Below, piece by piece: positions 1,840 to 23,229 of a stretch of DNA of 64,000 bases (position 1 is the stretch's first letter; the number at the start of each line of letters is the position of its first letter). Position numbers and translations under genes: made by a program. Source of the DNA: Candidatus Terraquivivens ruidianensis (GTDB lineage Archaea > Thermoproteota > Nitrososphaeria_A > Caldarchaeales > Wolframiiraptoraceae); the NCBI GenBank assembly GCA_023267975.1, contig JALNLA010000003.1, positions 1-64,000 on the forward strand, written 5' to 3'. A model generated the notes under the pieces. It had not been told where the DNA came from. It did no database searches and saw only the letters and a program-made list of their open reading frames with translations.

Positions 1840-2682
1840 TTATTTTTTCTTGAAGAGCGCTATCGACCCTAGATGCACGTCCTTTCCTGTGTACACTGTT
1901 CCTATGACCTTCGGATAGTATCCATCCAACGTTATGGATACAGAATATACATGATTCCACTCAAGGTTCTTCAACCAGAAGTCTCCGAATTCGTCCGTAG
2001 TAGTTGAATAAGTCTTGCTAGTATTTAGGTCTACAGCAGTTACGGTGGCTCCTCGGAGACATTCGTCGATTTCTGGGTCGTAGATGTCTCCGGCTATGAA
2101 GGGTTTAGGCAAGTTTAGGTAATAGACCCTAGGCTTAGTACCGTACTCCGGGTGGAGCACCTCTGCATTCTTTATGAGGTCCTTCAACTCATCGTATTCC
2201 CCGAATTTTATCGCATCAGTGTGACAACTATCCACACACCTCGGGGTCTTAAGACCAGGATCGTCCGTCTTATTAGCATAATCTATGAGATGGGCACATC
2301 CTATGCATTTTTGAGCAATCTTAAGGTCATTGTTGAAGTATATTGCACCGTATGGACAGGCATCTATGCATGCTTTGCATCCGTTGCACTTGGCAGGGTC
2401 GATTATGACTAACCCATCCGCCCTCTTGTATATCGCTTTCACGGGGCATGCCGGTATGCATGGCGCATTGTCGCAATGCATGCAAGGAGTCGGAATGTAG
2501 GTTACCTTGACCTTCGGTATCGAACCCCTTTCCATCTCTACGATCTTCATCCAGAAATGTCCAGTATCTGGCTGAGGCTTAGCGTAAGGCGACCAGTCGT
2601 TGCCTACGAATTCGTCCTTACATACAAACTGGCATGAGTAACAACCAGCGCATTTTTCAACATCTATAACGAATACTTTCAT
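1840..2682 (-). CDS. Ferredoxin-like beta subunit of transhydroxylase-type molybdopterin oxidoreductase
   Basis: This 280-residue electron-transfer subunit has four cysteine groups: CAGCYSCQFVC (residues 11-21), CMHCDNAPCIPAC, CNGCKACIDAC, and CIGC with a distal CVDSC. These could bind up to four [4Fe-4S] clusters. From about residue 195 an extra domain (DPEIDECLRGATV, then TTDEFGDFWLKNL) resembles a transthyretin/CnaB-like beta sandwich with the DEFGxFWLKNL signature. The beta subunit of pyrogallol-phloroglucinol transhydroxylase carries such a C-terminal domain and is of similar size. There is no signal peptide, so it would be exported by hitch-hiking on the Tat-tagged alpha subunit. It lies 5 bases after the alpha gene, and its close paralog is at 19499-20344. 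The family assignment is good; the substrate is unknown. Confidence 0.85.
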   Translation of the reverse strand: MKVFVIDVEKCAGCYSCQFVCKDEFVGNDWSPYAKPQPDTGHFWMKIVEMERGSIPKVKVTYIPTPCMHCDNAPCIPACPVKAIYKRADGLVIIDPAKCNGCKACIDACPYGAIYFNNDLKIAQKCIGCAHLIDYANKTDDPGLKTPRCVDSCHTDAIKFGEYDELKDLIKNAEVLHPEYGTKPRVYYLNLPKPFIAGDIYDPEIDECLRGATVTAVDLNTSKTYSTTTDEFGDFWLKNLEWNHVYSVSITLDGYYPKVIGTVYTGKDVHLGSIALFKKK

Positions 2683-2687
2683 TCAGA

Positions 2688-5423
2688 TCACCCCCTCGCA
2701 AGCCAAGTTTCTGTCGTCTGGCCAGACCTCTCGTCGTACTTTTTCTTAAATGCCTCTGGATACCGCTTCGCCAGCTCGAAGACGTCCACTTTCTCAACCT
2801 CAACTAGGAAAGCGCTGACGACCATACCAAAAGCATTCTTCGAGGTGGTCTTGTACGGGCATATCAGGTTTATTGTACCACCTCTGTCAAGCCCTATCTT
2901 GCCGTCGGGATCGTAGTATACTGGATCTAACCTCTGGCCGTGGTCTATTGAAATGGCTCCCGGCATTATCCTCTCAGTCACATATGCCGCGCAGAGTATC
3001 GCACCTCTTTCATTGTAAACCTTCACGATGTCACCATGCTTGATGCCCCTTTTGGCAGCGTCTATTGGATGTATCCACATTGGGTAGTATAAGTACCCGT
3101 CTGGTCCTCTTATCTTATGCGTCGCTATCTCTGAGAGCCACATGTTGTCGTCTAGGTTGGCATGCTCCCTCCACCTCGGATGGTTAGACACGACGAGTAA
3201 CGGGTACTTCTTGGCCCTCGGATGGAAGAGGCTCTCTTGGTGTGTCTCACCGTAAGGAATCCAACGGGCGACCGGTGGCCTTTCCGGATCGTTTCCAAAG
3301 TTCTCATAAAGCCACTGGCAGAAGAACTCTATCTTTCCAGACTTAGTATTCAGACCCTGCCCTTCTGGCAGCTCCCAGTACCATCTAAACCCAGGTTGTG
3401 CGTATTCTTTCCATGTAGGGTCAACTGACACCACGTAATATTGCTTTTCCAGAAGCTCTTCCCAAGATATCAGGTCCTGAACCCCAGAGTTAGCCCAGCC
3501 TTCCTTCGCCCACTCAAAGTGCGACTTCCCGTAAGTGAAGTCGTACCCTAACTTTTCAGCCACCGTTTCGACTATCTCGACGTCACTCTTTGACTCTCCC
3601 ACCGGGTCTACGCATCGGTACTGGACATATAACATATTGTATTGCCCGCTCCCATTATCCGTCATTATGTCTATGTCATTCTCGAATGTCGTAGTGACGG
3701 GTAAAACCAAATCGGCAAAGAGGGCATCGTCTTCGAGTGTGAAGTGTTGAGCTACAAAGAATTCCACGTTGGAACTCCTGTAGGCCTTCACCAGTTCGTT
3801 TCCACCGTTCCAGCAAGTGGTCCAGCAAGGTGTTTCGGTCCAAACCATGCGCGGTGTTGGGTATCCCTCCTCTGGCGGGAATTTGTACTTAACGAACTGG
3901 TCTTGCACAGGAGCAAATGCTAATGTGGTTCCGTACCACTCGAACGGCCACGGTCCGAGTATCGCACTGGGAATAAGCGTCTTTGGTACGAAAGGCGGAT
4001 CCGCTCCTATTCCGAATATTCCTCTCGCGGCAGCTCCAGCGCTTACCGTTCTAGACGGTGTACCAAACGGCCAATTAAGTCCTCCCCACTCATGCATCTG
4101 TATCTGCTGAACCCCGGGCTTTCCTATTCCTTGCATCGCTAGACAATACGTCTCAAGCCTGGCTGGCTCCGTCGCATACTGTCCTCTTATTGTTGGACCT
4201 CCGTTGCAATGGAACATTGAGGTTCTCTTGCTGGCCCAAAGTCTGGCCAGAGCCTTGATTGTTCTACTGGGAACTCCTGAGATCTGCTCTGCCCACTTTG
4301 GCGTCTTCGGTACACCATCCTCCTCACCAAGGACGTACCTCTTGAAGTGCTCGAAACCGTACGTATGCGTCTCAACGTATTGCTTGTCGTATGTTCCCTC
4401 GGTTATCCAAACATAGGCTATGGCCAAGTATACTGTGGCGTCGGTATTGGGCCTTACAGGAATCCACTTGTCGGTGTAGGGAAGCGCAGCAGAATAGTTT
4501 AGGTCTGGAGCTATGTTGATTACCCTCTTGCCGGCCTCCTTAAGCCAGTAGCATGTTAGGCTGGCCATCCTTTGTGGGTTGTGGCCATTAGGTGTAGTCT
4601 CCGCATCACAACCCCAGAACAGAGCAAGTTCGCCATTCAGGAAGAAGTCGTAAAGTGCTAGTCGTCGATACTGATTTTGTCCTTGGCCTCCATCCATTCC
4701 CCAGACGTGTTTGGCACCCCAGTAGTAACCCTCCCAACTGTCGGGGTTCCTAGCCTGAGTTATGCATCCGCCAAAGAAGTTGCGAAGGAAGTGCCTTATG
4801 GCACCCGGCCGTGTGTGCACAGCCTTAGACTCTCCATGGAAGTCACTTTGCACAAGTATGGCGTATGGGCCGTAGGTCTCCTTTATCCTTTTGAGCTCAC
4901 TCGTGAGAATCTCTAGGGCTTCATCCCAAGATATCCTAACAAATCCGCTTATGCCTCTATTCTGGGGATTTCTCTGGTTAGGAGACTTCCTATGGTCAAA
5001 GTCAACTCTCTTAAGCGGGTACCTGAGACGAGATGGCGAGTAGACGCGCATCTTATACACCAAAGCGTAGGGAGCAACTAGAGTCTTCAGCGGCGGCTCG
5101 AATTTCTTCCCGTTCACTTCAAAGCTCCAAGTCTGGAAGTCCTTTCCAGGTTTGTACTTCCAGTCGTAGTGCAACGGTCTTATCCTTACTATTCTGCCGT
5201 TCTTCACGTCTACTGCAACACAGTTAGAAGGGCCCCAACTTCCACCACCCAAGCTCAAATTTCTTACGTACGTCTTTACCTCTGCGGCCGCTTGCTTGAG
5301 TTCTTTGAGCTCCTCCGCGGACACCTCCTTCAACAGTCCTTCTGGCAACTGCGTTGTTATCGCAAACGTAGCACCTAGAACTCCAGCGATCTGTAAAAAC
5401 TCTCTTCTAGTAACATTAACCAT
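2688..5423 (-). CDS. Tat-exported molybdopterin oxidoreductase alpha subunit, pyrogallol transhydroxylase-like
   Basis: This is the catalytic subunit of a DMSO-reductase-family molybdopterin enzyme, about 911 residues from the ATG at 5423 (a GTG four codons upstream is possible). A Tat signal VTRREFLQIAGVLGATFA opens the protein. Unlike nitrate reductases or formate dehydrogenases, the first 100 residues hold only one cysteine, so no N-terminal [4Fe-4S] cluster is expected. H196, D228, S229 and W230 (in FHG and NPDSWEG) match in spacing the active-site His, Asp, Mo-ligand Ser and Trp that I recall for pyrogallol-phloroglucinol transhydroxylase. The downstream beta gene supports this family. 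The Tat signal and nearby NapGH-type genes suggest a respiratory role outside the membrane rather than cytoplasmic transhydroxylation. The substrate cannot be read from sequence. Confidence 0.85.
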   Translation of the reverse strand: MVNVTRREFLQIAGVLGATFAITTQLPEGLLKEVSAEELKELKQAAAEVKTYVRNLSLGGGSWGPSNCVAVDVKNGRIVRIRPLHYDWKYKPGKDFQTWSFEVNGKKFEPPLKTLVAPYALVYKMRVYSPSRLRYPLKRVDFDHRKSPNQRNPQNRGISGFVRISWDEALEILTSELKRIKETYGPYAILVQSDFHGESKAVHTRPGAIRHFLRNFFGGCITQARNPDSWEGYYWGAKHVWGMDGGQGQNQYRRLALYDFFLNGELALFWGCDAETTPNGHNPQRMASLTCYWLKEAGKRVINIAPDLNYSAALPYTDKWIPVRPNTDATVYLAIAYVWITEGTYDKQYVETHTYGFEHFKRYVLGEEDGVPKTPKWAEQISGVPSRTIKALARLWASKRTSMFHCNGGPTIRGQYATEPARLETYCLAMQGIGKPGVQQIQMHEWGGLNWPFGTPSRTVSAGAAARGIFGIGADPPFVPKTLIPSAILGPWPFEWYGTTLAFAPVQDQFVKYKFPPEEGYPTPRMVWTETPCWTTCWNGGNELVKAYRSSNVEFFVAQHFTLEDDALFADLVLPVTTTFENDIDIMTDNGSGQYNMLYVQYRCVDPVGESKSDVEIVETVAEKLGYDFTYGKSHFEWAKEGWANSGVQDLISWEELLEKQYYVVSVDPTWKEYAQPGFRWYWELPEGQGLNTKSGKIEFFCQWLYENFGNDPERPPVARWIPYGETHQESLFHPRAKKYPLLVVSNHPRWREHANLDDNMWLSEIATHKIRGPDGYLYYPMWIHPIDAAKRGIKHGDIVKVYNERGAILCAAYVTERIMPGAISIDHGQRLDPVYYDPDGKIGLDRGGTINLICPYKTTSKNAFGMVVSAFLVEVEKVDVFELAKRYPEAFKKKYDERSGQTTETWLARG

Positions 5424-5465
5424 TCCATCTAACACCTTCTTTTTCAGATTTTAAGGGGCACATAT

Positions 5466-5573: not shown

Positions 5574-7214
5574 CTATATAATATTGCTAAAAAATTCTTC
5601 ATATTTTGATTTTAATTCCCTCAACTTTAACTTCTTAAGAATTTCATCCTTTAAACCCATTATGTGCTTAACTTCTCCCGCTATCGTTTTATCCACATTC
5701 AGCAATAGGCGTTGAATATAAATTTCGTGCGGATCGAACAGACGATATTTCTCTCTTTGAGAAATCACCACTTCCATGGACTCATAGATGAAACCAGTTA
5801 TCGCATCTCTATCTAGTGAATCTGTCTCATAGTTAATTCGCTGGACCCAGTGAGGCATGCTCAGGCTTTGGATGCAATCCTTAATGTTTTTAAATAGAAC
5901 ACGATATCCATACTTTTCTGGATAATCGTATCCTAAAGAGCCTGGGTCAAGGAAAACCATGTGACCCATAATGGGCCCGCCTACTGGAACACGTTCTTCG
6001 ACATCTTTAAGGAGACCTTTGTCAAGAGCTTCCCGGTCCAATTCACAAAGCGCCCCCCATAATCTCCACGTTTCTTTAACGCTTTCTTTGGTGTCAGGTG
6101 CCAACGGAAGTAGAAAATATACGGTGATCGGCATGTGATACCTGTGACATTTTTTGACAGTTGCTAGCAACGCTTCGTTAGTGTAATTGCGTCCATGTTT
6201 TTTCCTAACTTCATAAGATCCGGATTCTGGAGAGATGTTTAAGGCCATAGTCACACCTATTCTTGAGAGCTCTTTTACGTACTCTTCATCAGCTGGGTAA
6301 AACAGGTCCATAGTCAAGCGCTCAACGTCAAACTTTTCTTTTCGAAGTGCAGATAATAACTGGGTCCAATACTTTCTTCCACCCATACGTGGGTCTTGGA
6401 GAATACCTATACACTTTACACCTTGAGCGGTGAGTCGCTGTAGATCCTCAACGAGTTTATTAGGACTTCTGAAAGATGGTCTTTCCATACCAAAGTAAGT
6501 TTTATAACTATAAGCAGAGCCACCGCACGTGACACAATTATACGTGCATCCACGGCATACGAACATGCTTATATGAGGTGACGTACCCGGTGTGAAGACC
6601 GACCCCTTTGGTTCAAGAAGGTCTAACCTAGTAAATTCGAACTCGTCCAAGTTTGCGCTTGGATTCATAATAGGCGCGACTGTTATTCTACCATCTTCAC
6701 GGTAAGTTACATTAGGTGTCTCTGAAATATGTCCTCGATTTTCATACATATTCATGAATTCTAAAAGAGGTTTTTCGCTTTCTCCCCGAATAACTGCATC
6801 AATGAAGTCGAAATGTTTTATGAGCTCCTCATGAAATACTGAAGCCGTAAGGCCACCAATGATGACCAGTGACTCAGGATGTAACTCTTTGCATATCTTG
6901 GCTACTTCTATCGCACCCTGAGTATGTAAATACCAATGCAGTTCAATAGCATATACATCGGCTACATTCCTTTTTATGTATTCTTTAACGTCAAAGTAAG
7001 GGTCAGCTAACATCCTTTCGCCTAAATTATCAATTAAGACTTTGTACCCGTGTCTATCTAAAAATTCAGCTACACTAAGAATACCAATAGGGACTTGGAT
7101 GTACTGATGTGTTGTATGGATAGATACTTGGGATGCAGGTCCTGGAAAATGCACTATTTTCCTGAAATCATAAATGGCAGGGGGGTGTATAAAGAGTACG
7201 TCGTAGTGCGTCAT
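5574..7214 (-). CDS. B12-binding radical SAM protein, copy 2
   Basis: This 546-residue protein has an N-terminal cobalamin-binding-like fold (HPPAIYDFRK at 10-19, VAEFLDRHGYKV, a HWYLHTQGA segment near 93-101 in place of the classical DxHxxG, and GGLTAS near 120). A radical SAM domain follows, with the cluster cysteines C223, C227 and C230 in CTYNCVTC. The family is known for B12-dependent methyl transfers, ring contractions and other radical chemistry on SAM; no substrate can be deduced here. Two paralogs flank it in the same region. It ends 1 base before the Ig-like gene stops being read and sits just upstream of the alpha subunit gene, so it is probably part of the same functional module. 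Confidence 0.85.
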   Translation of the reverse strand: MTHYDVLFIHPPAIYDFRKIVHFPGPASQVSIHTTHQYIQVPIGILSVAEFLDRHGYKVLIDNLGERMLADPYFDVKEYIKRNVADVYAIELHWYLHTQGAIEVAKICKELHPESLVIIGGLTASVFHEELIKHFDFIDAVIRGESEKPLLEFMNMYENRGHISETPNVTYREDGRITVAPIMNPSANLDEFEFTRLDLLEPKGSVFTPGTSPHISMFVCRGCTYNCVTCGGSAYSYKTYFGMERPSFRSPNKLVEDLQRLTAQGVKCIGILQDPRMGGRKYWTQLLSALRKEKFDVERLTMDLFYPADEEYVKELSRIGVTMALNISPESGSYEVRKKHGRNYTNEALLATVKKCHRYHMPITVYFLLPLAPDTKESVKETWRLWGALCELDREALDKGLLKDVEERVPVGGPIMGHMVFLDPGSLGYDYPEKYGYRVLFKNIKDCIQSLSMPHWVQRINYETDSLDRDAITGFIYESMEVVISQREKYRLFDPHEIYIQRLLLNVDKTIAGEVKHIMGLKDEILKKLKLRELKSKYEEFFSNII

Positions 7215-7215
7215 T

Positions 7216-9060
7216 TTACTTTATCGTGATATCACGTATCTCTAAGGCGAAGTTTTCGACGAATATTTCATCAATCGTAGCGTATATGAGGTGCATAGAA
7301 CCATCGTTGATTGTGCCACCAACACCACGTGCTGCATGTTCCATCAGTTCGCCCATGGGATCCTCACCGGTTATTGTAAACGGTCCCATACCATACGCCT
7401 TGAATGTTAAGTAGATCATATAAGAATCGACCGATGTCATAACAGCTTTTGAAGCCCTAGCTATCCACTTATCGTCGCTTGTAAATTTATTGATAAACCT
7501 ATCCAAAGAATATTGCATAGGATGAGCAAGCACCAAGTCGTATACCTCACCCCTACCTACAGTAAAGTGGAGCACAGCCTCTTTAAGCTCCTTATATGTA
7601 CCATAGTCTTCGATGGCATACCCTTGTAACAAGTCGGCTTTGGGAGCGTTAATTATTGTTGGAACATATGGCTCCTTACCACCTATGTACTCCCCAGAAA
7701 CCTCGTTTTCCATGAACCTTGCATTTTTTGCCGTCCACTTGAACAGAAGGATTACGCCATTTTCTAGAGATAATGTATCGTATGGTCCTAGTGAGGTTGC
7801 GCTTTCACTTGTTATTTCCAAGGTTTTTCCTAAACTCGGCGAATAGGCAGATATACGTACAGCATATATCTCAAGGTCATTTACTTCGACCATCGAAGAT
7901 GAGAGCCCTATCCGGCTAAGAGCAAAGTCACTTATCTCCATCTTCTCAGCTACTATTCTGACACCATTTACTTCTCCACCCTTAATTGTCGGCACTGCCA
8001 CTGGGCCCTCTATTATGACGTTCTTTAACATTGCCGAGTTGAACTTTATTTCGTATTCCAGGCCAGCTATTGTTACTGGCGCTGGAGCTACTTCTATGAT
8101 TACAGTCGCAGATGACATACTATAGCTCTCATCACCTTCGAACGTTGCTGTGACCTTAACGGCTGTCTTAGTTGTCAGAACCTCTGGAGCCTTGTATGTT
8201 ACCACGGTCCCAGTTGTCGCAGATAGCGTTCCAGGACCTTCTAAACTCCACTTTATGGTTTTGCCTGTGAGTACATTTCCATCCACATCCTTCAACGTAG
8301 CAGTCAGCTCCTTGGATTCGCCGGAAACTATGGAGGCACTTGTCGGAGATATCGATAATATTGTGGCCTTCTTGGCAATAGTGCCCTTAGGCAATATAGT
8401 ACCGTAGCAAGGTTCACTGGTACTCGACAAATATCCACTCGTTCCTAAGAATTTCGCAGTTATCTTGATTGTAGTCTTGGCAGTCACCTCTGGTGCCGTG
8501 TAAGTTACGGACGGGCCTTTAACCGGAGATATCGTTCCAGGACCTTCTAAGACCCACTCTATCTGCTCAGATGGGGCTGATGGAGGTTCTAGGGTTGCCG
8601 TGAGCGTTATAGATTTACCTGACTCTACCTCAAATGAAGATGGGCTTATGACGATTGAGGTTTTAGATACTCCTGCTGGCAATATTGTTGCTGTTACTTT
8701 AGTAGAGCAACCCCAATAGTCCTTGTCTCCAGCGAAGGATACAGTTATTGTAACCTGTTTTATCTCAGATACCACTGGCGCCGTGTAAACTACCATCTCA
8801 CCAATAGCCTTATCTAATGACCCATCAGTTACTGACCACTTTAGCTCCTTTCCGGAGAGAATGAATGAATCAGAAGTAAGTGTGGCAATCAGCGTTATGC
8901 TTTTTCCTGATTCAAGTTCGAATTCTGATGGTGTCACGTTCAGCTGCGTGCTTCTTGGAATTACGATCAAACCCGTGAAGAACATGGCACCTACAGCCAA
9001 CAGTATTATGATAACTGCAGCAGCTATGATTATGATTTTTGTCCTAGTACGCAAAGTCAT
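7216..9060 (-). CDS. Membrane-anchored Ig-like repeat protein with shared C-terminal domain
   Basis: The protein has 614 residues. An N-terminal transmembrane anchor (about residues 8-31) is followed by three Ig-like/Big-type repeats starting near residues 37, 133 and 232, each with a P-x-[ST]-[FA]-x-[ILV]-x-SG-[KE]-S-x-x-L-x-ATL opening. From about residue 335 there is a C-terminal domain that I do not recognise, marked by G-x-x-x-GG-x-EPY-x-P and P-x-[EQ]-Y-x-L-[DN]-R. This domain recurs in the NapH fusion at 9965-12349 and in the gene at 23230-24935. The topology implies an extracytoplasmic location. Because all copies sit with the Mo enzymes, it may tether or cover the exported enzyme; that is inference. 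The neighbouring radical SAM gene follows within 2 bases, so they are probably co-transcribed. Confidence 0.8.
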   Translation of the reverse strand: MTLRTRTKIIIIAAAVIIILLAVGAMFFTGLIVIPRSTQLNVTPSEFELESGKSITLIATLTSDSFILSGKELKWSVTDGSLDKAIGEMVVYTAPVVSEIKQVTITVSFAGDKDYWGCSTKVTATILPAGVSKTSIVISPSSFEVESGKSITLTATLEPPSAPSEQIEWVLEGPGTISPVKGPSVTYTAPEVTAKTTIKITAKFLGTSGYLSSTSEPCYGTILPKGTIAKKATILSISPTSASIVSGESKELTATLKDVDGNVLTGKTIKWSLEGPGTLSATTGTVVTYKAPEVLTTKTAVKVTATFEGDESYSMSSATVIIEVAPAPVTIAGLEYEIKFNSAMLKNVIIEGPVAVPTIKGGEVNGVRIVAEKMEISDFALSRIGLSSSMVEVNDLEIYAVRISAYSPSLGKTLEITSESATSLGPYDTLSLENGVILLFKWTAKNARFMENEVSGEYIGGKEPYVPTIINAPKADLLQGYAIEDYGTYKELKEAVLHFTVGRGEVYDLVLAHPMQYSLDRFINKFTSDDKWIARASKAVMTSVDSYMIYLTFKAYGMGPFTITGEDPMGELMEHAARGVGGTINDGSMHLIYATIDEIFVENFALEIRDITIK

Positions 9061-9269: not shown

Positions 9270-9845
9270 TTACTTTTTAACGAGCCCTTCTAACATCTTA
9301 GATGTTTCTTTATATCTCTCGAGGTTATAATTCTCGGATAACGTTAGTTTCTTCTCGTCTATAAGCCATTTTATAACCTCATAGACTTCAAGAGCTTGCG
9401 ACAGCTTCTCCGGGTCCTTCTCCCAACCGCTTTCCCAATTCCAGAAAGCTTCATTCACATAAGTTATTAAACCTTTGGAAAGATCAACGCTTACACTTCT
9501 TGGGAAGCTTTTCGTACAGATATTTATCCTGAATATCTCTACTTCAGAAACATCCTTTATCTCCGGCCAAGTGCTAACGTCTATATCAAGTACGAAACGC
9601 GCCTCCGCTCTTGTACCAGTATGGGGGGTCCATGCTGTCGGAAACAACCTAAACGGTTTGTTTTCCACATCAACCTCAGCCACACCCCACGCCTTAGCTT
9701 CTATGTACAGAAACGTCCAGCCCTTTTCCTTTATTGCGTCAAGCCAAGAACGTATGTCTTGACGATATTTTACAATCTCGTCGGGAGCAGTTCTCATTAC
9801 CCTTATCGATACCTTACCTTTTGCATAACCAATCCACATACTCAT
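9270..9845 (-). CDS. Conserved protein of the Mo-enzyme module, copy 2 (unknown function)
   Basis: This 191-residue paralog of the genes at 1172-1807 and 18792-19409 has no recognised family. It contains the shared SFPRSVSVD, ITYVNEAFWNWE and ALEVYEVIKWLIDEKKL segments, in the same order as the other copies. It lacks signal peptide, membrane helix and cysteine pairs. Here the copy is not next to a beta subunit; it lies between the NapH fusion gene and the Ig-like gene. It may therefore serve the NapGH part of the system or simply be a displaced duplicate. The ATG at 9845 is followed directly by MSMWIGYAKGK. Confidence 0.75.
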   Translation of the reverse strand: MSMWIGYAKGKVSIRVMRTAPDEIVKYRQDIRSWLDAIKEKGWTFLYIEAKAWGVAEVDVENKPFRLFPTAWTPHTGTRAEARFVLDIDVSTWPEIKDVSEVEIFRINICTKSFPRSVSVDLSKGLITYVNEAFWNWESGWEKDPEKLSQALEVYEVIKWLIDEKKLTLSENYNLERYKETSKMLEGLVKK

Positions 9846-9964: not shown

Positions 9965-12349
9965 TTACTTATGAATAGAGGAGAGTAGTTGAACGTCTGT
10001 CAGGGAAGCTTTATCCAACTTGAAGAGGACCGTATGGACCTCCACGTTAAGTACTCTATGACAGTAATATCTTCCTATACCCCAAGACGTCCATAGATGC
10101 CATATTACGCCACCGATGCTTTCATCACCAGTAGCTTTGATAGAATAAGACCCGAACGGTCCTATGTATCTGGATGTTTGAACTATAATCTTGTAATATA
10201 TAGCGTACATTGTCATATTCTCTCCTGTCAGCTTCGTCGAGTTTAGAACAAGCCCAGCTTTGTATCCGTACTCTTTCAAGGCCCTATTCAAATGATACTC
10301 CGTTGGCATAATTATTGAGAAACCATCCGCCTCTACCTGACCCGATGTCAGCTTCATGACCTTCTTAACGAGCTCTTCATAGCTTTCGGGTGCACTCATC
10401 GCGTATTTTTGCGATAGCACCACCTCCGTGGCGGTGACCACGCTCGGCATGTATGGCTCAGACCCTCTAACATACTTTCCAACGATGCGTAATTGTATTG
10501 CTTCTAAAGCCTTACAACGCAGCATAGTGAACATGATTTCTCCGTCATTCATCTCAATCGTGCCTGATAGCGCTACCTTCTTATTGCCAGTTAATTCCAC
10601 AACCCTTCCATCCAGTATTCCCTTAAAAGATGAGGCATATATTTCAAGACCCTTTAGCATCGCTTCGGCTGCCATTAAACTAGCATTAAACATGGACATG
10701 TTGTAAACAGTTGCCTCTGCGCCTCTAATTCTTATGAATGAGAAGTTACCGATATTTATCGGTCCTTCCACAACACCATCTTTGAAGGATATCCTGCTGA
10801 ATCTGAGGTCATAACATTCTCCGGTAAGTTCGTAGAATGGTGGAGGAGTGGTGGGTTCTAAAGAGACTTTGCCGACCGCATATCCCATGCTCGGGAGGTA
10901 ACGTACATTCCCTTTGAAGAAAGCTGAGATTCTTACTTGTACTTCTACTTCGACTTCTTGAGGTGCGAAATACGTTACACTCTCACCTACGTTGTTAGAT
11001 AGACGTCCTGGACCTTCAAGCTTCCACTCAATGAGCTCTATTGGAACCTCTTGAGGTAAAACTACTGCTTTTAGGGTCACATATTCGCCTGGCTTAACCA
11101 CGAACGACTGCGGCATTATAGATGTCGTAGTAGGCTCCTGCCCAAGCGATATTACCGTGCCAACTATTGTGGTAGTTGCACCCTTATACTCCTCATCCCC
11201 GTAAAATGATGCGATGATCGTTACAGTCTTGTTTTCGTGAGTTGATGGTGCTATGTATCTCACGACGTAACCATCATTTTTATCGAAGAAACCATCTGAG
11301 GCCCACCAGACAATATCTTTGTTTGGTATCGCCGCCGCTCCGAATGATAAGTTTGCAGTAAAAGTAATGTTTCCGCCCGAGATTATTGTAAAATTTGCGG
11401 GCGTTATAGTTAGTGAGACTTCCTTTGGTGCAAGGTACATATTAGATATTGGTATAACTGTTATGAAGAATGCAAGCACTATCGCAGCAGATATGAGCAT
11501 CTTCTTTGAGGCGTTGAACCGACTTATCGTCTTAAACGTCACACCATTTTGCGGACATTTGGAGTAGCATACCAAACATTTAGTGCATTCAGCTAATTCT
11601 TTTTCTTTATACAGAGGTATTCCTTCTGGACATATTTTATCGCAGATTCCACACTCTTTGCAAGAACCTCTTTTGACTATAGGTTTAAAGAAGGGGTTCA
11701 ACTTGCTAATAATCGTCAATAAGCTTGAGACCGGGCATAGGAACCTACAGAAGAATCTATTCTCGTACAGACTCGAAGCCACAACGCCTCCAACTATGAC
11801 GGTCTCAGCAACCGCCACGAGTCCGCCCGCGGCCGACCCCCTGCATATTGTTCCTATAGGACAGACGCTACACCAAGCAGGGTTACGGGATATTATAGCG
11901 GACCCCAGCACCCCTCCAAGAACCGCGTGTTTAATGTTCTTGTTTAGTAGGGAGTTTTTTGGGGCTACTCTGTTCTTTCTTCTGGTATATGGTACGAGTT
12001 TAGCCTTGGAGAAAGCATACCCGACCAGCTCCACAACTGACCCTACTGGGCATGCCCACGCACACCAAGCTTTCCCAAACAGTATGGTGGTTATTACGAA
12101 GATAGCGATACCTGACAGAACCATCAATAAGATTCTTGTGTTGAATGTTGTCATGTTTGAGAATATTATTTGTAGCCCGCCGAGAGGCTCGATAGGAGCA
12201 AACCCATTAGCCGTGAAGCTGCAGACTGTGCCTATAACAAAAAGCACGAAGAAAACGAAGAATAGAGCCTGGGATACGTGCCTGATCCATTGCACAACAT
12301 TTTTCATATTTAGAACAGATACCAAGCCGTCATCCCTCATATGGTTCAT
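9965..12349 (-). CDS. NapH-type ferredoxin quinol dehydrogenase fused to Ig-like repeats and shared C-terminal domain
   Basis: The protein has 794 residues. The first ~280 form a NapH/NosR-type membrane unit: several transmembrane helices, CAWACPVG and CRFLCPVSS motifs on the membrane segments, and two [4Fe-4S] ferredoxin motifs (CKECGICDKICP, CTKCLVCYSKCP). A further membrane helix near residue 285 leads to two Ig-like repeats and then the same C-terminal domain as the protein at 7216-9060 (RGSEPYMPSVV, PTEYHLNRAL). NapH proteins oxidise quinol and pass electrons to a NapG-type ferredoxin. The fusion of such a unit to a large external domain is unusual to my knowledge. The start overlaps the end of the NapG-like gene by 20 bases; an internal ATG at 12340 or 12307 is possible. 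Confidence 0.8.
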   Translation of the reverse strand: MNHMRDDGLVSVLNMKNVVQWIRHVSQALFFVFFVLFVIGTVCSFTANGFAPIEPLGGLQIIFSNMTTFNTRILLMVLSGIAIFVITTILFGKAWCAWACPVGSVVELVGYAFSKAKLVPYTRRKNRVAPKNSLLNKNIKHAVLGGVLGSAIISRNPAWCSVCPIGTICRGSAAGGLVAVAETVIVGGVVASSLYENRFFCRFLCPVSSLLTIISKLNPFFKPIVKRGSCKECGICDKICPEGIPLYKEKELAECTKCLVCYSKCPQNGVTFKTISRFNASKKMLISAAIVLAFFITVIPISNMYLAPKEVSLTITPANFTIISGGNITFTANLSFGAAAIPNKDIVWWASDGFFDKNDGYVVRYIAPSTHENKTVTIIASFYGDEEYKGATTTIVGTVISLGQEPTTTSIMPQSFVVKPGEYVTLKAVVLPQEVPIELIEWKLEGPGRLSNNVGESVTYFAPQEVEVEVQVRISAFFKGNVRYLPSMGYAVGKVSLEPTTPPPFYELTGECYDLRFSRISFKDGVVEGPINIGNFSFIRIRGAEATVYNMSMFNASLMAAEAMLKGLEIYASSFKGILDGRVVELTGNKKVALSGTIEMNDGEIMFTMLRCKALEAIQLRIVGKYVRGSEPYMPSVVTATEVVLSQKYAMSAPESYEELVKKVMKLTSGQVEADGFSIIMPTEYHLNRALKEYGYKAGLVLNSTKLTGENMTMYAIYYKIIVQTSRYIGPFGSYSIKATGDESIGGVIWHLWTSWGIGRYYCHRVLNVEVHTVLFKLDKASLTDVQLLSSIHK

Positions 12350-12914
12350 GAGTTATAGAGCGTGGCGGACAGAGTATAGCACATTGCTTACACCCTATAC
12401 ATTTATCCAAATCGAAGCTTGGCCATCCTTCATTGTCAACACTTATTGCATCGAACGGACAGATAGCAACGCATATGTAGCATTTTGTACACTTTTCCTT
12501 ATCGTTTTTAGGTATGCTAATCTTAATCTTTTTTAGAGGTAAACGCTTCAGAGCACTCGTTGGACATGCATCGATGCATCTTAAACATAGCTCTGCATTC
12601 TCTCTGCTTCTCTTAAAATGTACATTTTTCTCTTCACTAGGCTCCACAAGTTGAATGTAGAAAGCACAATAGCCCTCTAGTACTGGCGTGCCTAAAGTGT
12701 AGAAGTTTAAGTAGTCGAGCTTTATTCCACCTGTTGGACAAACCTCAACACACTTACCGCACCTTATACAAGAAGAAACAAATTTGTCCTCATCTACAAC
12801 TCCAGGAGGTCTGATGGTTTTGCTTTTACCAACACCGATTAAAGTTAGTAAGGCAGTAGAGGCGAACAAGCCGATTATGGAAACGATGAAGCCTCGTCTG
12901 TTCAAGCTGAACAT
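12330..12914 (-). CDS. NapG/MauM-type periplasmic-like polyferredoxin
   Basis: This 194-residue protein starts with a Tat-like signal (NRRGFIVSIIGLFAS) and carries four [4Fe-4S] motifs: CIRCGKCVEVCP, CLRCIDACP with an upstream Cys, CTKCYICVAICP and CIGCKQCAILCP. This matches the NapG/MauM ferredoxin family, which relays electrons from membrane NapH to a terminal molybdoenzyme. It is the first gene of the run and overlaps the NapH fusion gene by 20 bases. That supports a NapGH-like unit feeding the Tat-exported molybdopterin enzymes encoded downstream. Confidence 0.85.
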   Translation of the reverse strand: MFSLNRRGFIVSIIGLFASTALLTLIGVGKSKTIRPPGVVDEDKFVSSCIRCGKCVEVCPTGGIKLDYLNFYTLGTPVLEGYCAFYIQLVEPSEEKNVHFKRSRENAELCLRCIDACPTSALKRLPLKKIKISIPKNDKEKCTKCYICVAICPFDAISVDNEGWPSFDLDKCIGCKQCAILCPPRSITHEPYEG

Positions 12915-17022: not shown

Positions 17023-18753
17023 TCAGGTTGTTGACTTTCTAATTTTGCATTCTTTTAAGGTTCTTTCCATTACTTGGGCTAAAAGCTTACCGTAACCATA
17101 AGGGTCAGCTATTGGTTTAAAGTATTGTAATGTAAAGTCAAACGCATACTTCAAATATTTTAATCTTAAATTCTTCTCTTTCTCACTTCTAATACTTATT
17201 ATTTTATCAATTTCTGTTTTTACTAATTTATCTACATTCAGTTGTAAGCGTTGTAGGAATATTTCATACCGATTTAGTAACCCATAGTTTTCTCTACATT
17301 GGATAGCAAATTCTATGGACTTATAGATTAAATTGATGAGTGCTTCTTTATTTAATAATTCTGTTTCATAATTGAATCTCTGATGCCAGCATGGCATAAT
17401 TAGTATTCTTAAGTGATCCTCAATCGTTCTACAGAGTAATTTGTATCCATATTTTTCTGGATAGTCAAACCCCAGGGAACCTGGATCCAAGTATATCATA
17501 TGACCCATTATTGGACCTGCTACTGGAATAAAATGTTCTAGATGTCTGAAGATCCCTTTAGAGATAGCTTCTCTATCAAGTGATGAGAGCTTCTCCCATA
17601 ACCTCCAAGTATCCTCTATTGTTTTAAAATCTTCTTTCGAAAGCCCTATCATGAAGAAGACTGTTATCGGGATATGGTATCTATGGCAGAGCTTGACGGT
17701 TTCTATTAACTGTTCATTGGTATATTCCCGTCCATGTAGCATCCTAACTTCGTAAGACCCCGTATCTGGAGATATGTTAAGAGTTACTGGTAAACGGGTT
17801 CTAAAAATATATTGCATATACTCTTCATCAGCTGGTTGGAACATGTCCATCGTTAGTCGTTCAATATCGAGATCTTCTTTTCCGAGTAGGGTAAATAGCT
17901 TTTCCCAGTAGTTTTTTCCAGCCATACGCGGGTCTTGGAGAAGAGCCACGCATCTTACATCCTGCTCAATAAGTTTTTGTAGATCTTCAATTAGTTTTTC
18001 CGGGCTCCTAAATGCAGGCTTTTCTCTACCAAAATACTTTCTATATGTATATGCAGAACCACCACACGTAACGCAATTGTAAATACACCCTCTACATATA
18101 GACATGCTAAAGTGGGAGGATGTACCTGGAGTATATATTGAAGTTTTTGGATCAAGTAAATCCAATCTCGTAAATTCAAATTCGTCCAAATTTTCAGAGG
18201 GTTTCATGAGGGGTGTAATTGCAATCTTATCATTGTTGCGGAAGGTTAAATTAGGTACGCCGTCATCGATTTTCCTCTTATTCTCATATTTTTTAAGAAA
18301 CTCGTATAAAGGTTTCTCAGCCTCCCCTCTAATAATTAAATCTATGAAAAGAAAATTTCTAATAATCTCTTCGTGGAATATCGTAGCAGTAAGCCCGCCC
18401 ATCACTACTAATGCTTCTGGATGTATAGTCTTACATAACTTAGCAACTTCTATCGCACCTTGACCATGAACATACCAATGCCACTCAATAGCATAAACTT
18501 CTGCATTTATCGATCTAATGTATTGTTCAATATCAAACTTTTCATCATAAAGCATTCTTTCGCCTAGATTGTCTACTCTTACTTTGTAGCCATTTCTATC
18601 TAGATATTCGGCTACACTTAACGTACCTTGAGGTACTTGGATATATTGAGCGGCCGTATGTATGGAAATCTGGGAAGTAGGTCCTGGAAAATGCGGTATC
18701 TTTCTAAAGTCATAGATTGCAGGCGGGTGGACAATTAACACATCAAGATTCAT
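17023..18753 (-). CDS. B12-binding radical SAM protein, copy 3
   Basis: This 576-residue protein has the same architecture as the copy at 5574-7214: an N-terminal cobalamin-binding-like domain (HPPAIYDFRK, LDRNGYKV, HWYVHGQGA, GGLTAT) and a radical SAM domain with C223, C227 and C230 in CIYNCVTC. The C-terminus is about 30 residues longer. It follows the third unknown-family gene (gap 38 bases) and so ends the second module in transcription order: alpha, beta, unknown, radical SAM. No substrate can be inferred. Confidence 0.85.
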   Translation of the reverse strand: MNLDVLIVHPPAIYDFRKIPHFPGPTSQISIHTAAQYIQVPQGTLSVAEYLDRNGYKVRVDNLGERMLYDEKFDIEQYIRSINAEVYAIEWHWYVHGQGAIEVAKLCKTIHPEALVVMGGLTATIFHEEIIRNFLFIDLIIRGEAEKPLYEFLKKYENKRKIDDGVPNLTFRNNDKIAITPLMKPSENLDEFEFTRLDLLDPKTSIYTPGTSSHFSMSICRGCIYNCVTCGGSAYTYRKYFGREKPAFRSPEKLIEDLQKLIEQDVRCVALLQDPRMAGKNYWEKLFTLLGKEDLDIERLTMDMFQPADEEYMQYIFRTRLPVTLNISPDTGSYEVRMLHGREYTNEQLIETVKLCHRYHIPITVFFMIGLSKEDFKTIEDTWRLWEKLSSLDREAISKGIFRHLEHFIPVAGPIMGHMIYLDPGSLGFDYPEKYGYKLLCRTIEDHLRILIMPCWHQRFNYETELLNKEALINLIYKSIEFAIQCRENYGLLNRYEIFLQRLQLNVDKLVKTEIDKIISIRSEKEKNLRLKYLKYAFDFTLQYFKPIADPYGYGKLLAQVMERTLKECKIRKSTT

Positions 18754-18791: not shown

Positions 18792-19409
18792 TCAGCTTTT
18801 AAGTTTTTCTATTATCTCGTTCTTAGATTCATATTCTCTAAATTTTTGTAATAATCCTCTGCATCGTTCTTCGTGCAGATTTTCATGTAACTTGAATTTC
18901 TTTTCTTCCATAAGCCACCTGACTACTTCATAGACTTCAAATGCTTTTGATAACTTCTCTTTATCTTCCATCCACTCATCCATCCAATCCCAGAACGTAT
19001 TTTCAACATATGTTATGATTTGTTTTACCAGTTCCACCGTTACAGATCTCGGGAAACTTTTTGTAGATATATTAATATGAAATTCATCTACCTCTTTTAT
19101 CTTCACTTCTGGAAAAGGCTTACCTAGCTCTACGTCTATAGAGAAACGACCTTTTGTAAACCAGTCCGCAGCATAGGGAATTATTCTTGAGGGTTGTCCT
19201 GAAAATTCCAGTTCTACAAAATATTTTCCTGTCATTTCGATATACAGATATTTCCAGCCTTTCAACGTAATCTCATCTAGTATTGATTTGTATTCAAGAA
19301 AATTCTTTAAAACTAGCTCAGGCGTTAATCTCCCATCATATTCAAGCGTTAGCTTTCCGTTAGCGACTGCTTTTTGATTAGTAATTAGAAAAGTTGGATA
19401 CCGTATCAT
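18792..19409 (-). CDS. Conserved protein of the Mo-enzyme module, copy 3 (unknown function)
   Basis: This 205-residue protein carries the signature shared with the copies at 1172-1807 and 9270-9845: KSFPRSVTVEL, ITYVENTFWDW, AFEVYEVVRWLMEEKKFKL. As in module 1 it follows a beta subunit gene (gap 89 bases). Repeated placement directly after alpha and beta supports a role tied to that enzyme. No membrane helix, signal peptide or metal motif is visible. Confidence 0.75.
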   Translation of the reverse strand: MIRYPTFLITNQKAVANGKLTLEYDGRLTPELVLKNFLEYKSILDEITLKGWKYLYIEMTGKYFVELEFSGQPSRIIPYAADWFTKGRFSIDVELGKPFPEVKIKEVDEFHINISTKSFPRSVTVELVKQIITYVENTFWDWMDEWMEDKEKLSKAFEVYEVVRWLMEEKKFKLHENLHEERCRGLLQKFREYESKNEIIEKLKS

Positions 19410-19498: not shown

Positions 19499-20344
19499 CT
19501 ATGGTTTCTTGTACAAAGGTATCGATCCTAAATGTACGTCTTTGTTTGTCGCTACAACTCCTATGATTTTTGGATGATATTTTGGATGTTCTATAGTTAC
19601 CCGATACATCTTATTCCATTCCAAGTTCTTAAGCCAGAAGTCTCCGAACTCATCAGTAGTATCAGTTGCGCTTACGATACCAGTTGATATATCAACTGCA
19701 TTGACCGTTGCTCCTTGAATGCATTCATCATTCTCTGGATCATATACATCCCCAGCTACGAAAGGTTTTGGAAGGTTTATGTAATAAACTCTCGGCTTCG
19801 TTCCATATTCTGGATGTAATATTTCTGCTTTTGCTATGAGGTCCTTTAATTCCTCATACTCCCCAAACTTTATAGCATCGGCTGGGCAGTTATCTACGCA
19901 TCTAGGCATCTTTGGCTGCCCTTCTCCAAGACTTACACCATCCAGCATATGAGCACATCCAGTACATTTCTGAGCAATTTTAAGTTCTGTGTTAAAGTAT
20001 ATGACACCGTATGGGCATGCATCTATGCATACTCTGCATCCGTTGCATGTAGCTGGGTCTATTATGACCAAGCCATCAGCTCTCTTGTATATTGCCTTTG
20101 GCGCGCATACAAGCATGCATGGAGCATTATCACAATGCTGGCATAGCAATGGTATGTATGTTATTACTACCTTTGGCCTGCTTCCCCTTTCCATCTCTAC
20201 TATCTTCATCCAGAACTGTCCAGTATCAGGCTGAGGTTTTGCATATGGACTCCAATCGTTCTCTACATGCTCATCTTTACATCCTATCTGGCAATCGTAG
20301 CACCCAACACATCTACTAAGATCTATGACGAATACCTTTGCCAT
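19499..20344 (-). CDS. Ferredoxin-like beta subunit of transhydroxylase-type molybdopterin oxidoreductase, copy 2
   Basis: The protein has 281 residues and is very close in sequence to the beta subunit at 1840-2682. Four cysteine groups are present (CVGCYDCQIGC, CQHCDNAPCMLVC, CNGCRVCIDAC, CTGC plus CVDNC). The C-terminal beta domain keeps TDEFGDFWLKNLEWN. It starts 5 bases after the end of the alpha subunit gene. It should form a heterodimer with that subunit and be exported together with it. Confidence 0.85.
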   Translation of the reverse strand: MAKVFVIDLSRCVGCYDCQIGCKDEHVENDWSPYAKPQPDTGQFWMKIVEMERGSRPKVVITYIPLLCQHCDNAPCMLVCAPKAIYKRADGLVIIDPATCNGCRVCIDACPYGVIYFNTELKIAQKCTGCAHMLDGVSLGEGQPKMPRCVDNCPADAIKFGEYEELKDLIAKAEILHPEYGTKPRVYYINLPKPFVAGDVYDPENDECIQGATVNAVDISTGIVSATDTTDEFGDFWLKNLEWNKMYRVTIEHPKYHPKIIGVVATNKDVHLGSIPLYKKP

Positions 20345-20349
20345 CTAGC

Positions 20350-23139
20350 TCACCCCTTAACCCATGAATCGTAGCATAGACCAACGTCTGGATGGAGCCT
20401 CTTCTTGAAACCGTCTGGATACTTCTTCATGATCTCGAATATATCGACCTTCTCGACCTCTACGAGATAGGCTGAAACGCACATCAATGGATATGTGTAC
20501 GGTACACTTGGTGCTAAGAGGTTAGTTGATCCACCCCTGTCAAGCAATACACCACCTTTCTCATCGTATGCTATAGGATCGATTCTAGAACCATGATCAG
20601 CATATACATGCCCTGGGTTAACTCTTTCGGTAACGTATGCAGCACATAGCACTGCGCCTCTATCGTTATAAACCCTCACAATATCCCCATGCTTTATACC
20701 TCTCTTAGCAGCATCTATAGGGTTAATCCATAGAGGCTCATATAGGTAACCATCAGGGCCACGGATCTTGCATGTAGGAATCTCTCTAAGCCAAGTAACG
20801 TCATCACATTGAACATGATGCCTCCACCTTACGTGATTGCTTTGTAGTATTAGTGGATACTTCTTTGCCCTTGGATGGAACAATCTCTCTTCATAGGCCT
20901 TACCATACGGTATCCAGTGGGGTATTGGTGGCCTCTCTTCTTTGAACTTAACGCCGTAATTCTCAAGATCAGCCCATTTCTCAAGACGAACAGATTTGAA
21001 CTCAATCTTGCCAGTCGGTGTGGGATGTACTCCTCCCATACCCTTACCCTCTGGTAACTCATAATACTTGGTCATGAAAGGCTTAAGACCTCGTTCACGT
21101 TTTACTTTCTCCCATTCTTCCGGTGTTGGAAACGGCATGACGAAATATTTTTTCGTCCTAACTTCATCCCAACTCATAAACTCTCTCAACGTCGTCCCCT
21201 CCCAGAAAGACCTGAACCATTCTTCAAAGGTCTTACCTCCGGTAAATTTATCTAATATGCCAAATCTTTCTGCAAGCATACAGTATATCTCGTAGTTGCT
21301 CTTAGATTCGCCTATTGGTTCAATTGCTTTCTCACCATAAAACACTATAAAGTTTTCGAACCCTGTATCCGTAACTTCTAGAGGCGTTACACAAGGAAGT
21401 ACTATGTCACAGAATAACAGATCATTCTCTAGCACATGTCCTAATCCAACATAAAATTCTACCTTCGGGCTTTTCCATGCCTCTATGAATTTATTGCCCG
21501 GGTTCCAGCATGCTGACAAACAGGTATTTTCATTCCATACCATGTGTATCTCAGGATATCCAGGCATTGGGAATTGATATTTCACAGCCTGATCATCTAT
21601 TTCTGCACCAAATGCCGTTGTACCGTACCAGCTGATAGGTGGATTAAGAATTGCTGCCCAAGTCAATGTTTTAGGTACGTGTTGGGGCTCCACTAGCCCG
21701 ACAGGAATAGAACTAGGGTGTCCAAGAATAAATAGCGCTCTTTCAGGAAGTTGGGGCAGCGTGGAGCCCCAACCAATCATACCAACATGATTAAGCTCCT
21801 GTACCCCTGGCCTTCCTATTCCCTGCATTGCTAGTAGGCATGCTTCCAACCTAGCTGGCTCAGATGCATACGGTCCCCTGATCTTCGGACCTCCGAAGTT
21901 GTTCATATATGTCGTTCTCTTAGATGCCCACAATCTTGCCAATGCCTTTATTATTCTTGATGGAATTCCCGTTATTGGTTCTGCCCATTTAGGAGTCTTC
22001 GGCACACCATCTTCTTCTCCTAGAACATACTTCTTGAAATCTTCAAACCCTACCGTATGTGTTTCTATGAATTTCTTATCATATGTCCCCTCAGTTATCC
22101 AAACGTACGCTATTGCTAGGTATAGAGCAGCATCGGTATTCGGTATTATTGGAATCCACTTTCCACCCTTGACCCAGAAGTAGTGAGCAGCACCAGCATA
22201 GTTAAGTTCAGGGGTAATCCAGATAATTCTTTTACTAATCTCCCTAAACCAAAACATCATTATAGTTGCGAAATGTCCTTGGAAACCACATGTTGTTGTC
22301 TCAGTGTCAGCATTAGTAATTATTAACTCAGCGTTATTTAAAACATCCTCTAGAACCAAGTCTTGGTCAGGTAATCCAGAGGGCCCAGGAAACCCCCATA
22401 CAAGTCTTGTCCCATAATACCAACCTTCCCAACTATCAGGATTTCTTATCGCATGTGTGCAACCACCTAGCAGTGGGAACAGGCTATGCGCATATCCATG
22501 AATAACATGTAAGTTACCGTTTTGGCCGTGCCCATCTGAGAATACTAGGCATGAGTATAGCCCATATGTATCCTTTATCCTCTTTATCTCGCTTTCAATT
22601 ATATCCAACGCTTCTTTCCATGATATTCTTACGAATCCGCTCACTCCCCTGTTTTGTGTATTCCTCTTGTCCGGTGATGCTCTATGGTCGAAGTCAACCC
22701 TCTTCAAAGGATACCTAACACGGTTAGGGTTGTATACACGTCTCTTATGTGATAATGCAAGATAAGAAGGTACACTTTTTAACGGATGTGTAAGAGTAAT
22801 GTCTCCTACCTTAAGTGTCACCTTTTTTATCTCTTCAGGTTTATATTTCCAATCCCAATGTAGCGGTCTTATTCTTATTATTCTCCCATTTTTCACATCA
22901 ATCGCACATGGTTCAAGATCATAATCTCCGAATCCACCTAATTGAAGGCTCTTTATTGTTGTTTTTATTTGTTCTGCCTCCGCTTTTAGCATCTCTGCTT
23001 CTTCCTTAGATACTTCTCTTAACAAAGATTCACTTAATGGTATTTGGATAGATGCAGCGAATGTTGCAGACAGAATCCCTGAAGTCTTTAAGAAATCTCT
23101 TCTAGAAATCATTAAAGTATTTTTCATTTCATACGACAT
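20350..23139 (-). CDS. Tat-exported molybdopterin oxidoreductase alpha subunit, pyrogallol transhydroxylase-like, copy 2
   Basis: About 929 residues from the ATG at 23139 (a GTG at 23154 is an alternative). The Tat signal is ISRRDFLKTSGILSATFA. As in the copy at 2688-5423, the N-terminal region has no cluster cysteines. H204, D235, S236 and W237 (in DGHG and NPDSWEG) keep the transhydroxylase-like active-site set. The two alpha subunits share long stretches, such as YLAIAYVWITEGTYDK and GEEDGVPKTPKWAE, but differ strongly in the substrate-side regions after residue 200, so they probably act on different substrates. A TATA box lies about 27 bases before the ATG. Confidence 0.85.
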   Translation of the reverse strand: MSYEMKNTLMISRRDFLKTSGILSATFAASIQIPLSESLLREVSKEEAEMLKAEAEQIKTTIKSLQLGGFGDYDLEPCAIDVKNGRIIRIRPLHWDWKYKPEEIKKVTLKVGDITLTHPLKSVPSYLALSHKRRVYNPNRVRYPLKRVDFDHRASPDKRNTQNRGVSGFVRISWKEALDIIESEIKRIKDTYGLYSCLVFSDGHGQNGNLHVIHGYAHSLFPLLGGCTHAIRNPDSWEGWYYGTRLVWGFPGPSGLPDQDLVLEDVLNNAELIITNADTETTTCGFQGHFATIMMFWFREISKRIIWITPELNYAGAAHYFWVKGGKWIPIIPNTDAALYLAIAYVWITEGTYDKKFIETHTVGFEDFKKYVLGEEDGVPKTPKWAEPITGIPSRIIKALARLWASKRTTYMNNFGGPKIRGPYASEPARLEACLLAMQGIGRPGVQELNHVGMIGWGSTLPQLPERALFILGHPSSIPVGLVEPQHVPKTLTWAAILNPPISWYGTTAFGAEIDDQAVKYQFPMPGYPEIHMVWNENTCLSACWNPGNKFIEAWKSPKVEFYVGLGHVLENDLLFCDIVLPCVTPLEVTDTGFENFIVFYGEKAIEPIGESKSNYEIYCMLAERFGILDKFTGGKTFEEWFRSFWEGTTLREFMSWDEVRTKKYFVMPFPTPEEWEKVKRERGLKPFMTKYYELPEGKGMGGVHPTPTGKIEFKSVRLEKWADLENYGVKFKEERPPIPHWIPYGKAYEERLFHPRAKKYPLILQSNHVRWRHHVQCDDVTWLREIPTCKIRGPDGYLYEPLWINPIDAAKRGIKHGDIVRVYNDRGAVLCAAYVTERVNPGHVYADHGSRIDPIAYDEKGGVLLDRGGSTNLLAPSVPYTYPLMCVSAYLVEVEKVDIFEIMKKYPDGFKKRLHPDVGLCYDSWVKG

Positions 23140-23159
23140 GATTGGTAAATACACTATAA

Positions 23160-23206: not shown

Positions 23207-23229
23207 CGATGTAGCTTAAAATAATTTTG

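Follow-up and report, generated by a model that had tools for sequence, protein, structure and literature searches.

A NapH-type membrane protein joined to a whole anchored Ig-repeat protein with a lineage-restricted domain, beside transhydroxylase-like molybdenum enzymes in Candidatus Terraquivivens

Background

NapGH is a menaquinol dehydrogenase, and members of the NapH family are expected to have four membrane helices and a ferredoxin part that lies in the cytoplasm. CcoG, a cupric reductase that reduces Cu(II), is bound to the membrane, holds two [4Fe-4S] clusters and has at its C-terminus a periplasmic Ig-like domain to which no function has been assigned (PMC7558416). A fusion of NapH with NapG, the MLMS-1 polyferredoxin, has also been described (PMC5449189), and the characterised transhydroxylase PgtLS is listed as cytoplasmic (PMC10100899).

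Here we analyse the first 64,000 nucleotides (the window) of contig C3 of Candidatus Terraquivivens ruidianensis, whose genome of 1.30 Mb is 97% complete. A single minus-strand open reading frame, running from position 12349 to 9965, encodes a protein of 794 amino acids (P0001) made up of a NapH-type module, two Ig-like repeats and a C-terminal domain of roughly 290 residues, which we call X. This protein resembles NapH (TIGR02163/PRK09477) in its two CX3CP and two ferredoxin motifs and in the overlapping napG gene upstream; it differs in the added membrane helix, the Ig repeats and X, in its scores far below the curated cut-offs, and in that no quinone-synthesis marker was found in the fusion-bearing genome. 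The ferredoxin-membrane-Ig architecture is common to CcoG/RdxA/FixG and the fusion, CcoG having one Ig domain whereas the fusion has two Ig repeats plus X. Membership of the CcoG/FixG family was rejected, as P0001 scored 35.5 against a cut-off of 316.7 bits with TIGR02745 and FixG_C (PF11614) was absent from its Pfam matches at E<=1. With the MLMS-1 protein the fusion shares the joining of NapH to a further exported domain; there, however, the exported part is a Tat-dependent, cluster-bearing NapG, whereas here the added part has neither a twin arginine before its helix nor cluster-binding cysteine motifs, and NapG is a separate protein. The statement in the preliminary description that no such fusion was known is therefore too strong, given the CcoG/FixG architecture and the published NapH-NapG fusions; what is new is a NapH-type protein carrying two Ig repeats and the new domain X. 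It represents a second, apparently independent ferredoxin-membrane-Ig design and as such offers a useful comparison for CcoG.

Layout of the fusion protein

The reading frame is composed of the following parts:

11522-12349, minus strand: NapH-type membrane module, residues 1-276 (NCBIfam NapH models)
11444-11500, minus strand: added membrane helix, residues 284-302 (hydropathy 2.5; alignment to the stand-alone anchor)
11147-11425, minus strand: Ig-like repeat 1, residues 309-401 (z scores; AF2 pLDDT ~80)
10865-11146, minus strand: Ig-like repeat 2, residues 402-495 (z scores; Foldseek)
9965-10837, minus strand: domain X, residues 505-794, with the motifs GSEPYMP and PTEYHLNR (profile search, dN/dS, hhalign)

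This is the order that had been proposed for the locus, namely two ferredoxin motifs followed by a membrane helix, two Ig-like repeats and a C-terminal domain, and every element of it is present. In the NapH module, two CX3CP motifs (CAWACP and CRFLCP) and two [4Fe-4S] ferredoxin motifs (CKECGICDKICP and CTKCLVCYSKCP) can be read directly. The module matches the NCBIfam models PRK09477 (E 2.1e-20) and TIGR02163 (E 1.7e-19), yet misses the curated NapH cut-offs (73 against 234 bits and 70.3 against 213 bits), which none of the 398 genomes of the phylum passes with either model; because of these scores we label it NapH-type instead of NapH proper. Hydropathy reveals three helices in the NapH part, in addition to the added one; the expected third stays below threshold, and AF2 modelled the NapH part as a whole with low confidence. 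An extra CxxCP motif (CSVCP) lies between the third and fourth helices (window about 11858-11872, residues ~160-164 of P0001), and is also present in NapH-type proteins of two genomes of the same order (G042 and G013).

The first Ig repeat of the fusion finds its best match in the first repeat of both stand-alone Ig-X proteins described below (shuffle z of 32 and 41), and the second repeat finds its best matches in their second and third repeats (z 25-33). Assignment to the Big repeats follows from one stand-alone protein, which scores above the Big_3_5 cut-off (E 3.4e-12) and to which the fusion repeats are homologous (best z 28-41). Both repeats are predicted by AF2 as beta sandwiches, with pLDDT mostly between 70 and 90, and the second also gave Foldseek matches to Ig-like structures. 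Apart from the Ig repeats, AF2 modelled full-length P0001 poorly (mean pLDDT 46.6).

Origin and conservation of the fusion

Two further genes of the window encode stand-alone proteins of the same design as the added part:

7216-9060, minus strand: IgX1 (P0002), stand-alone anchored protein with a transmembrane helix, three Ig-like repeats and X (about 7216-8082); Big_3_5 match as given above
23227-24840, plus strand: IgX2, second stand-alone protein, with a truncated X; in-frame stop, homologous tail out of frame to 24935

Genome searches matched residues 280-488 of P0001 to residues 8-214 of P0002 at 38% identity (E about 1e-37 to 3e-37), and residues 326-573 of P0002 to the X part of P0001 (E 1e-17). 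When the proteins are aligned, residues 280-794 of P0001 correspond to an entire stand-alone protein, membrane anchor included, minus one Ig repeat (two in the fusion, three in the stand-alone proteins). The added helix and the anchor at the N-terminus of the stand-alone proteins are homologous, and a membrane helix stands ahead of the Ig repeats in every copy. From the other side, an unfused NapH of 255 amino acids, 43-44% identical and accompanied by its NapG, is found in a genome of the same order and another family (G042), and this NapH stops at about residue 276 of P0001, where the fusion begins. Since a whole stand-alone protein is matched on one side of the junction and an unfused NapH ends at the other, the fusion consists of NapH joined in frame to an entire TM-Ig-Ig-X gene, like the stand-alone gene located two genes downstream. 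The locus offers a clean example of how a membrane protein of respiratory type can acquire an outer domain through fusion with a complete neighbour.

A chimeric assembly of the junction could be ruled out. In an independent metagenome-assembled genome (MAG; L041) the same sequence extends from NapH across the helix into the first Ig repeat, and Ca. Terraquivivens tikiterensis encodes a full-length fusion ortholog of 788 amino acids, 71% identical over 783 residues, which adjoins napG and lies in the same L14e-cbf5 neighbourhood as in the window. The fusion of NapH to Ig-like repeats and a shared domain, as first noticed in the preliminary description, is hence confirmed in two species. Codon comparison with T. 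tikiterensis gave dN/dS ratios of 0.12 for NapH, 0.10 and 0.07 for the first and second Ig repeats, and 0.16 for X, these ratios being approximate as dS is high (about 1.3-2.0). With values of 0.07-0.16 throughout, constraint on the added part is similar in strength to that on the older NapH part; the join is real and is kept by selection, every part of the protein being under purifying selection.

Domain X

The three X proteins share two motifs: GxEPYxP, at position 629 of the fusion and at 461 and 453 of the others, and P-x-[EQ]-Y-x-L-[DN]-R, at positions 682, 514 and 506, respectively. The second of these had been described as PxEYxLxR; both motifs do occur in all three proteins, except that a stand-alone protein has Q in place of E. 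The X domains are 24-26% identical to one another (shuffle z = 33-37) and show no match to the Ig repeats (z 1-3), and hhalign related fused X from two species to stand-alone X from two paralogs with P = 9e-19. The sharing of the domain with the proteins at 7216-9060 and 23230-24935 likewise holds as homology, but the second of these is an open reading frame of 23227-24840 that is broken near its end: the frame opening at 23227 runs into an in-frame TAG at position 24840; the final ~30 codons, which reach to 24935, belong to a different frame, and a stretch between the two parts is absent. Unless the assembly is wrong there, IgX2 is a truncated or decaying copy.

In this genome the three copies are found within a span of 18 kb, next to two operons that encode alpha/beta pairs of molybdenum (Mo) enzymes. 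Apart from these, the X profile had two matches, the fusion of T. tikiterensis and, in a genome of another genus of the same family (G012), a relic of 48 residues; the remainder of 398 genomes of the phylum, and 44 genomes of the order and class, gave none. The relic (2581-2724 of contig C4 of G012, locus L037) is the tail of a fused-type X, read in the frame ...VVFHFWIGFEIGRICHLITSTEVHIVYFKLDK..., and shares its contig with moeA and, between 5445 and 10526, with frame-broken radical SAM and alpha genes followed by an intact beta gene. This locus is a decaying copy of the Mo cluster in another genus. Among the genomes searched, X thus occurs in two species, with a relic in a third genome; in the genome of the window it is confined to the Mo cluster.

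Searches with X returned no credible Pfam match, no carbohydrate-binding family, no PDB-sequence match at E<=10 and no match on viral contigs. An AF2 model built with four sequences is all-beta with long strands (pLDDT 70, pTM 0.73), and Foldseek comparison of this model, whose confidence is only moderate, with the PDB and viral folds gave a TM of about 0.14 at best. We therefore treat X as a new, lineage-restricted domain, without a family or fold match in the searches that we ran.

Gene neighbourhood and molybdenum enzymes

The genes around the fusion comprise an exported polyferredoxin, two Mo enzymes and accessory genes:

12330-12914, minus strand: NapG-type exported polyferredoxin, with a TAT-like N-terminus, MFSLNRRGFIVSIIGLFAS
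9270-9845, minus strand: uncharacterised 191-aa protein of a Mo-locus-associated family
5574-7214, minus strand: B12-binding radical SAM protein, TIGR04190-like, beginning 2 nt after IgX1
2688-5435, minus strand: Mo enzyme alpha1, with a TAT signal, pyrogallol-transhydroxylase-like (4v4c_A, E 2.7e-130; Ser ligand motif NPDS)
1840-2682, minus strand: Mo enzyme beta1, ferredoxin-type (4v4c_B, E 1.1e-52 over 4-274; C-terminal carboxypeptidase-regulatory-like PF13620)
20350-23154, minus strand: Mo enzyme alpha2, with a TAT signal, 54% identical to alpha1 (NPDS)
19499-20344, minus strand: Mo enzyme beta2

The napG gene lies directly upstream of napH, the two overlapping by 20 nt at the napH start. 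In the PDB, alpha1 and beta1 each find their best match in PgtLS (4v4c), with most of either chain covered, and NPDS, with its Ser ligand of Mo, is found in both alpha subunits. On these sequence grounds, both alpha/beta pairs are archaeal, TAT-signal-bearing relatives of pyrogallol-phloroglucinol transhydroxylase, and differ from PgtLS in their TAT signals and in their partner set of NapGH, Ig-X and B12-radical SAM proteins. They point to the export, by hot-spring archaea, of relatives of an enzyme that transforms phenols. The His/NPDS region is conserved in the two pairs (1840-5435 and 19499-23154).

Each alpha/beta operon includes a B12-binding radical SAM protein and an uncharacterised protein of ~200 amino acids. 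Three related radical SAM proteins are encoded in the window (5574-7214, 17023-18753 and 1-882), adjoining alpha/beta genes or a gene of the ~200-aa family; that at 5574-7214 matches TIGR04190 strongly, yet below the cut-off. The ~200-aa family has three members in the window as well (9270-9845, 18792-19409 and 1172-1960), without a Pfam or NCBIfam match. As its homologs have MobB and MobA for neighbours in both G009 and G012, and in G009 also MoeA and a NarJ-type chaperone gene, we regard it as a candidate accessory protein of the Mo enzymes.

Among the open reading frames of the cluster, NapH is the only apparent redox subunit that is embedded in the membrane, which makes it the obvious candidate for the membrane link. 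In G042, the unfused napGH genes (L036, 450-6499) are found near peroxiredoxin, ferritin-like and flavodiiron-type genes and away from the Mo enzyme of that genome, so NapGH itself is not tied to the alpha/beta enzyme.

Homologs occurring without Mo enzymes had been named in the preliminary description as evidence against a link with the enzyme, and T. tikiterensis nominally provides such a case: in its MAG, which is 96% complete, no PF00384 protein was detected, though the fusion is kept. The same MAG carries MobA and MobB, which serve bis-MGD enzymes. Its NapH contig is only 7.4 kb long and stops soon after a transposase gene that lies downstream of napH; the radical SAM gene and the hypothetical gene are a few hundred bases from the end of their contig. 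The presence of MobA and MobB, and contigs that end at the locus, make an assembly gap the likely cause of the missing Mo enzyme, so that its absence is suggestive without being decisive. The earlier designation of the NapH part as a quinol unit is unsupported and doubtful, since G000 and G004 yielded no PF02621, the futalosine marker, and no MenD above cut-off. NapH may accordingly exchange electrons with something else.

Proposed role of domain X

The Ig repeats and X would be carried to the cell exterior by the added helix, because the same helix anchors the stand-alone proteins, whose N-terminus is inside. The Ig repeats would then act as spacers and X as a docking module which, on NapH and on the stand-alone tether alike, would recognise the same partner, for which the exported alpha/beta enzyme is the likeliest candidate, or would bind another X. 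Such docking could hold the enzyme at the membrane beside NapG and NapH, so that electrons might pass between alpha/beta and NapG and NapH. Enzymes of this kind often have a membrane anchor subunit; docking would replace this subunit, which is missing from the cluster.

We regard this reading, in which NapH and the tethers share a docking partner for X and the alpha/beta enzyme is the likeliest one, as quite possible, if somewhat short of probable. Docking is favoured by the occurrence of X both on a redox membrane protein and on an anchored protein beside TAT-exported alpha/beta subunits, by its confinement in this genome to the Mo cluster, by a relic beside an alpha/beta operon in another genus, by the TAT-like signals of alpha and NapG, and by the lack of another apparent membrane-embedded redox subunit in the cluster. 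It is disfavoured by T. tikiterensis, which keeps the fusion without a detected PF00384 protein, by the position of the unextended napGH of G042 away from its Mo enzyme, and by the broken state of IgX2, the third X copy. With no match to its fold, structure does not favour protein binding by X over binding of substrate or cell wall. The broader proposal, that X is a lineage-specific outer docking domain which couples exported transhydroxylase-like Mo enzymes to NapG/NapH in place of an anchor, and is used on a redox protein as well as on separate tethers, is more tentative and on balance doubtful. It would suggest how archaea in which the conventional anchor subunit is lacking could keep exported Mo enzymes at the cell surface; in any case, the locus adds an uncharacterised domain.

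X might instead bind a target other than the enzyme, for instance a substrate (phenolic or polymeric), the S-layer or glycans of the cell wall; the Ig-X proteins would then be surface or substrate-capture proteins whose function was carried onto NapH. A layout of Ig spacers leading to a beta domain at the end is typical of surface proteins, and the Ig-X proteins, with their predicted all-beta, long-stranded X (pLDDT 70), conform to it; the relationship of the enzyme to pyrogallol transhydroxylase makes phenolic substrates possible, and the fusion persists in T. tikiterensis, where a Mo enzyme went undetected. We nevertheless find this somewhat unlikely: substrate binding is less obvious for a domain on a redox membrane protein, X matches no carbohydrate-binding family, and its occurrence tracks the Mo cluster. 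That same T. tikiterensis unit, present and under selection, would also fit a NapGH-Ig-X that serves another redox partner or process, for example oxidative stress or metal reduction, its adjacency to the Mo operon being coincidental or a relic. The NapGH of G042 indeed sits beside peroxiredoxin and ferritin-like genes, and CcoG, with its ferredoxin clusters and C-terminal Ig-like domain, is a cupric reductase (PMC7558416). However, the same X is found on a stand-alone protein directly upstream of the radical SAM-alpha-beta genes, the G012 relic shares its contig with alpha/beta genes, and T. tikiterensis has MobA and MobB while both of its cluster contigs end near the locus, so that its Mo enzyme may simply be unassembled; we consider a different partner equally improbable.

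The fusion could, finally, be an accident in which a napH stop codon was lost beside an Ig-X gene, the product being tolerated and X having no special role on NapH. The junction is a simple end-to-end join with a paralog two genes away, and genes have decayed elsewhere in the cluster (IgX2 and the G012 operon). This is very unlikely, as both species keep the full 794- or 788-aa form with Ig and X parts constrained about like NapH (dN/dS 0.07-0.16), and the X of the fusion has diverged from the stand-alone X at ~75% of positions, which indicates that the fused form is old.

Other NapH-type extensions

Among the near-full-length NapH-type matches in the 398 genomes of the phylum, as distinct from frames of 400-600 codons matched over the ferredoxin part alone, none other carries a C-terminal Ig-X extension. 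Two long frames, in G033 (645 codons) and G126 (505 codons), were considered as NapH-Ig-X fusions and rejected, since they carry N-terminal extensions: extra helices in G126, and a YtkA-like Ig domain plus helices in G033. The G033 protein and its homolog in G029 (451 codons) have further membrane segments past the ferredoxin part. An N-terminal Ig domain on a NapH-like protein, as in G033, is another route to a similar design. The G033 gene (L096; contig C110, 1392-3311), from the same order, encodes a NapH-like protein with an N-terminal signal peptide, a weak YtkA-like Ig match and extra helices.
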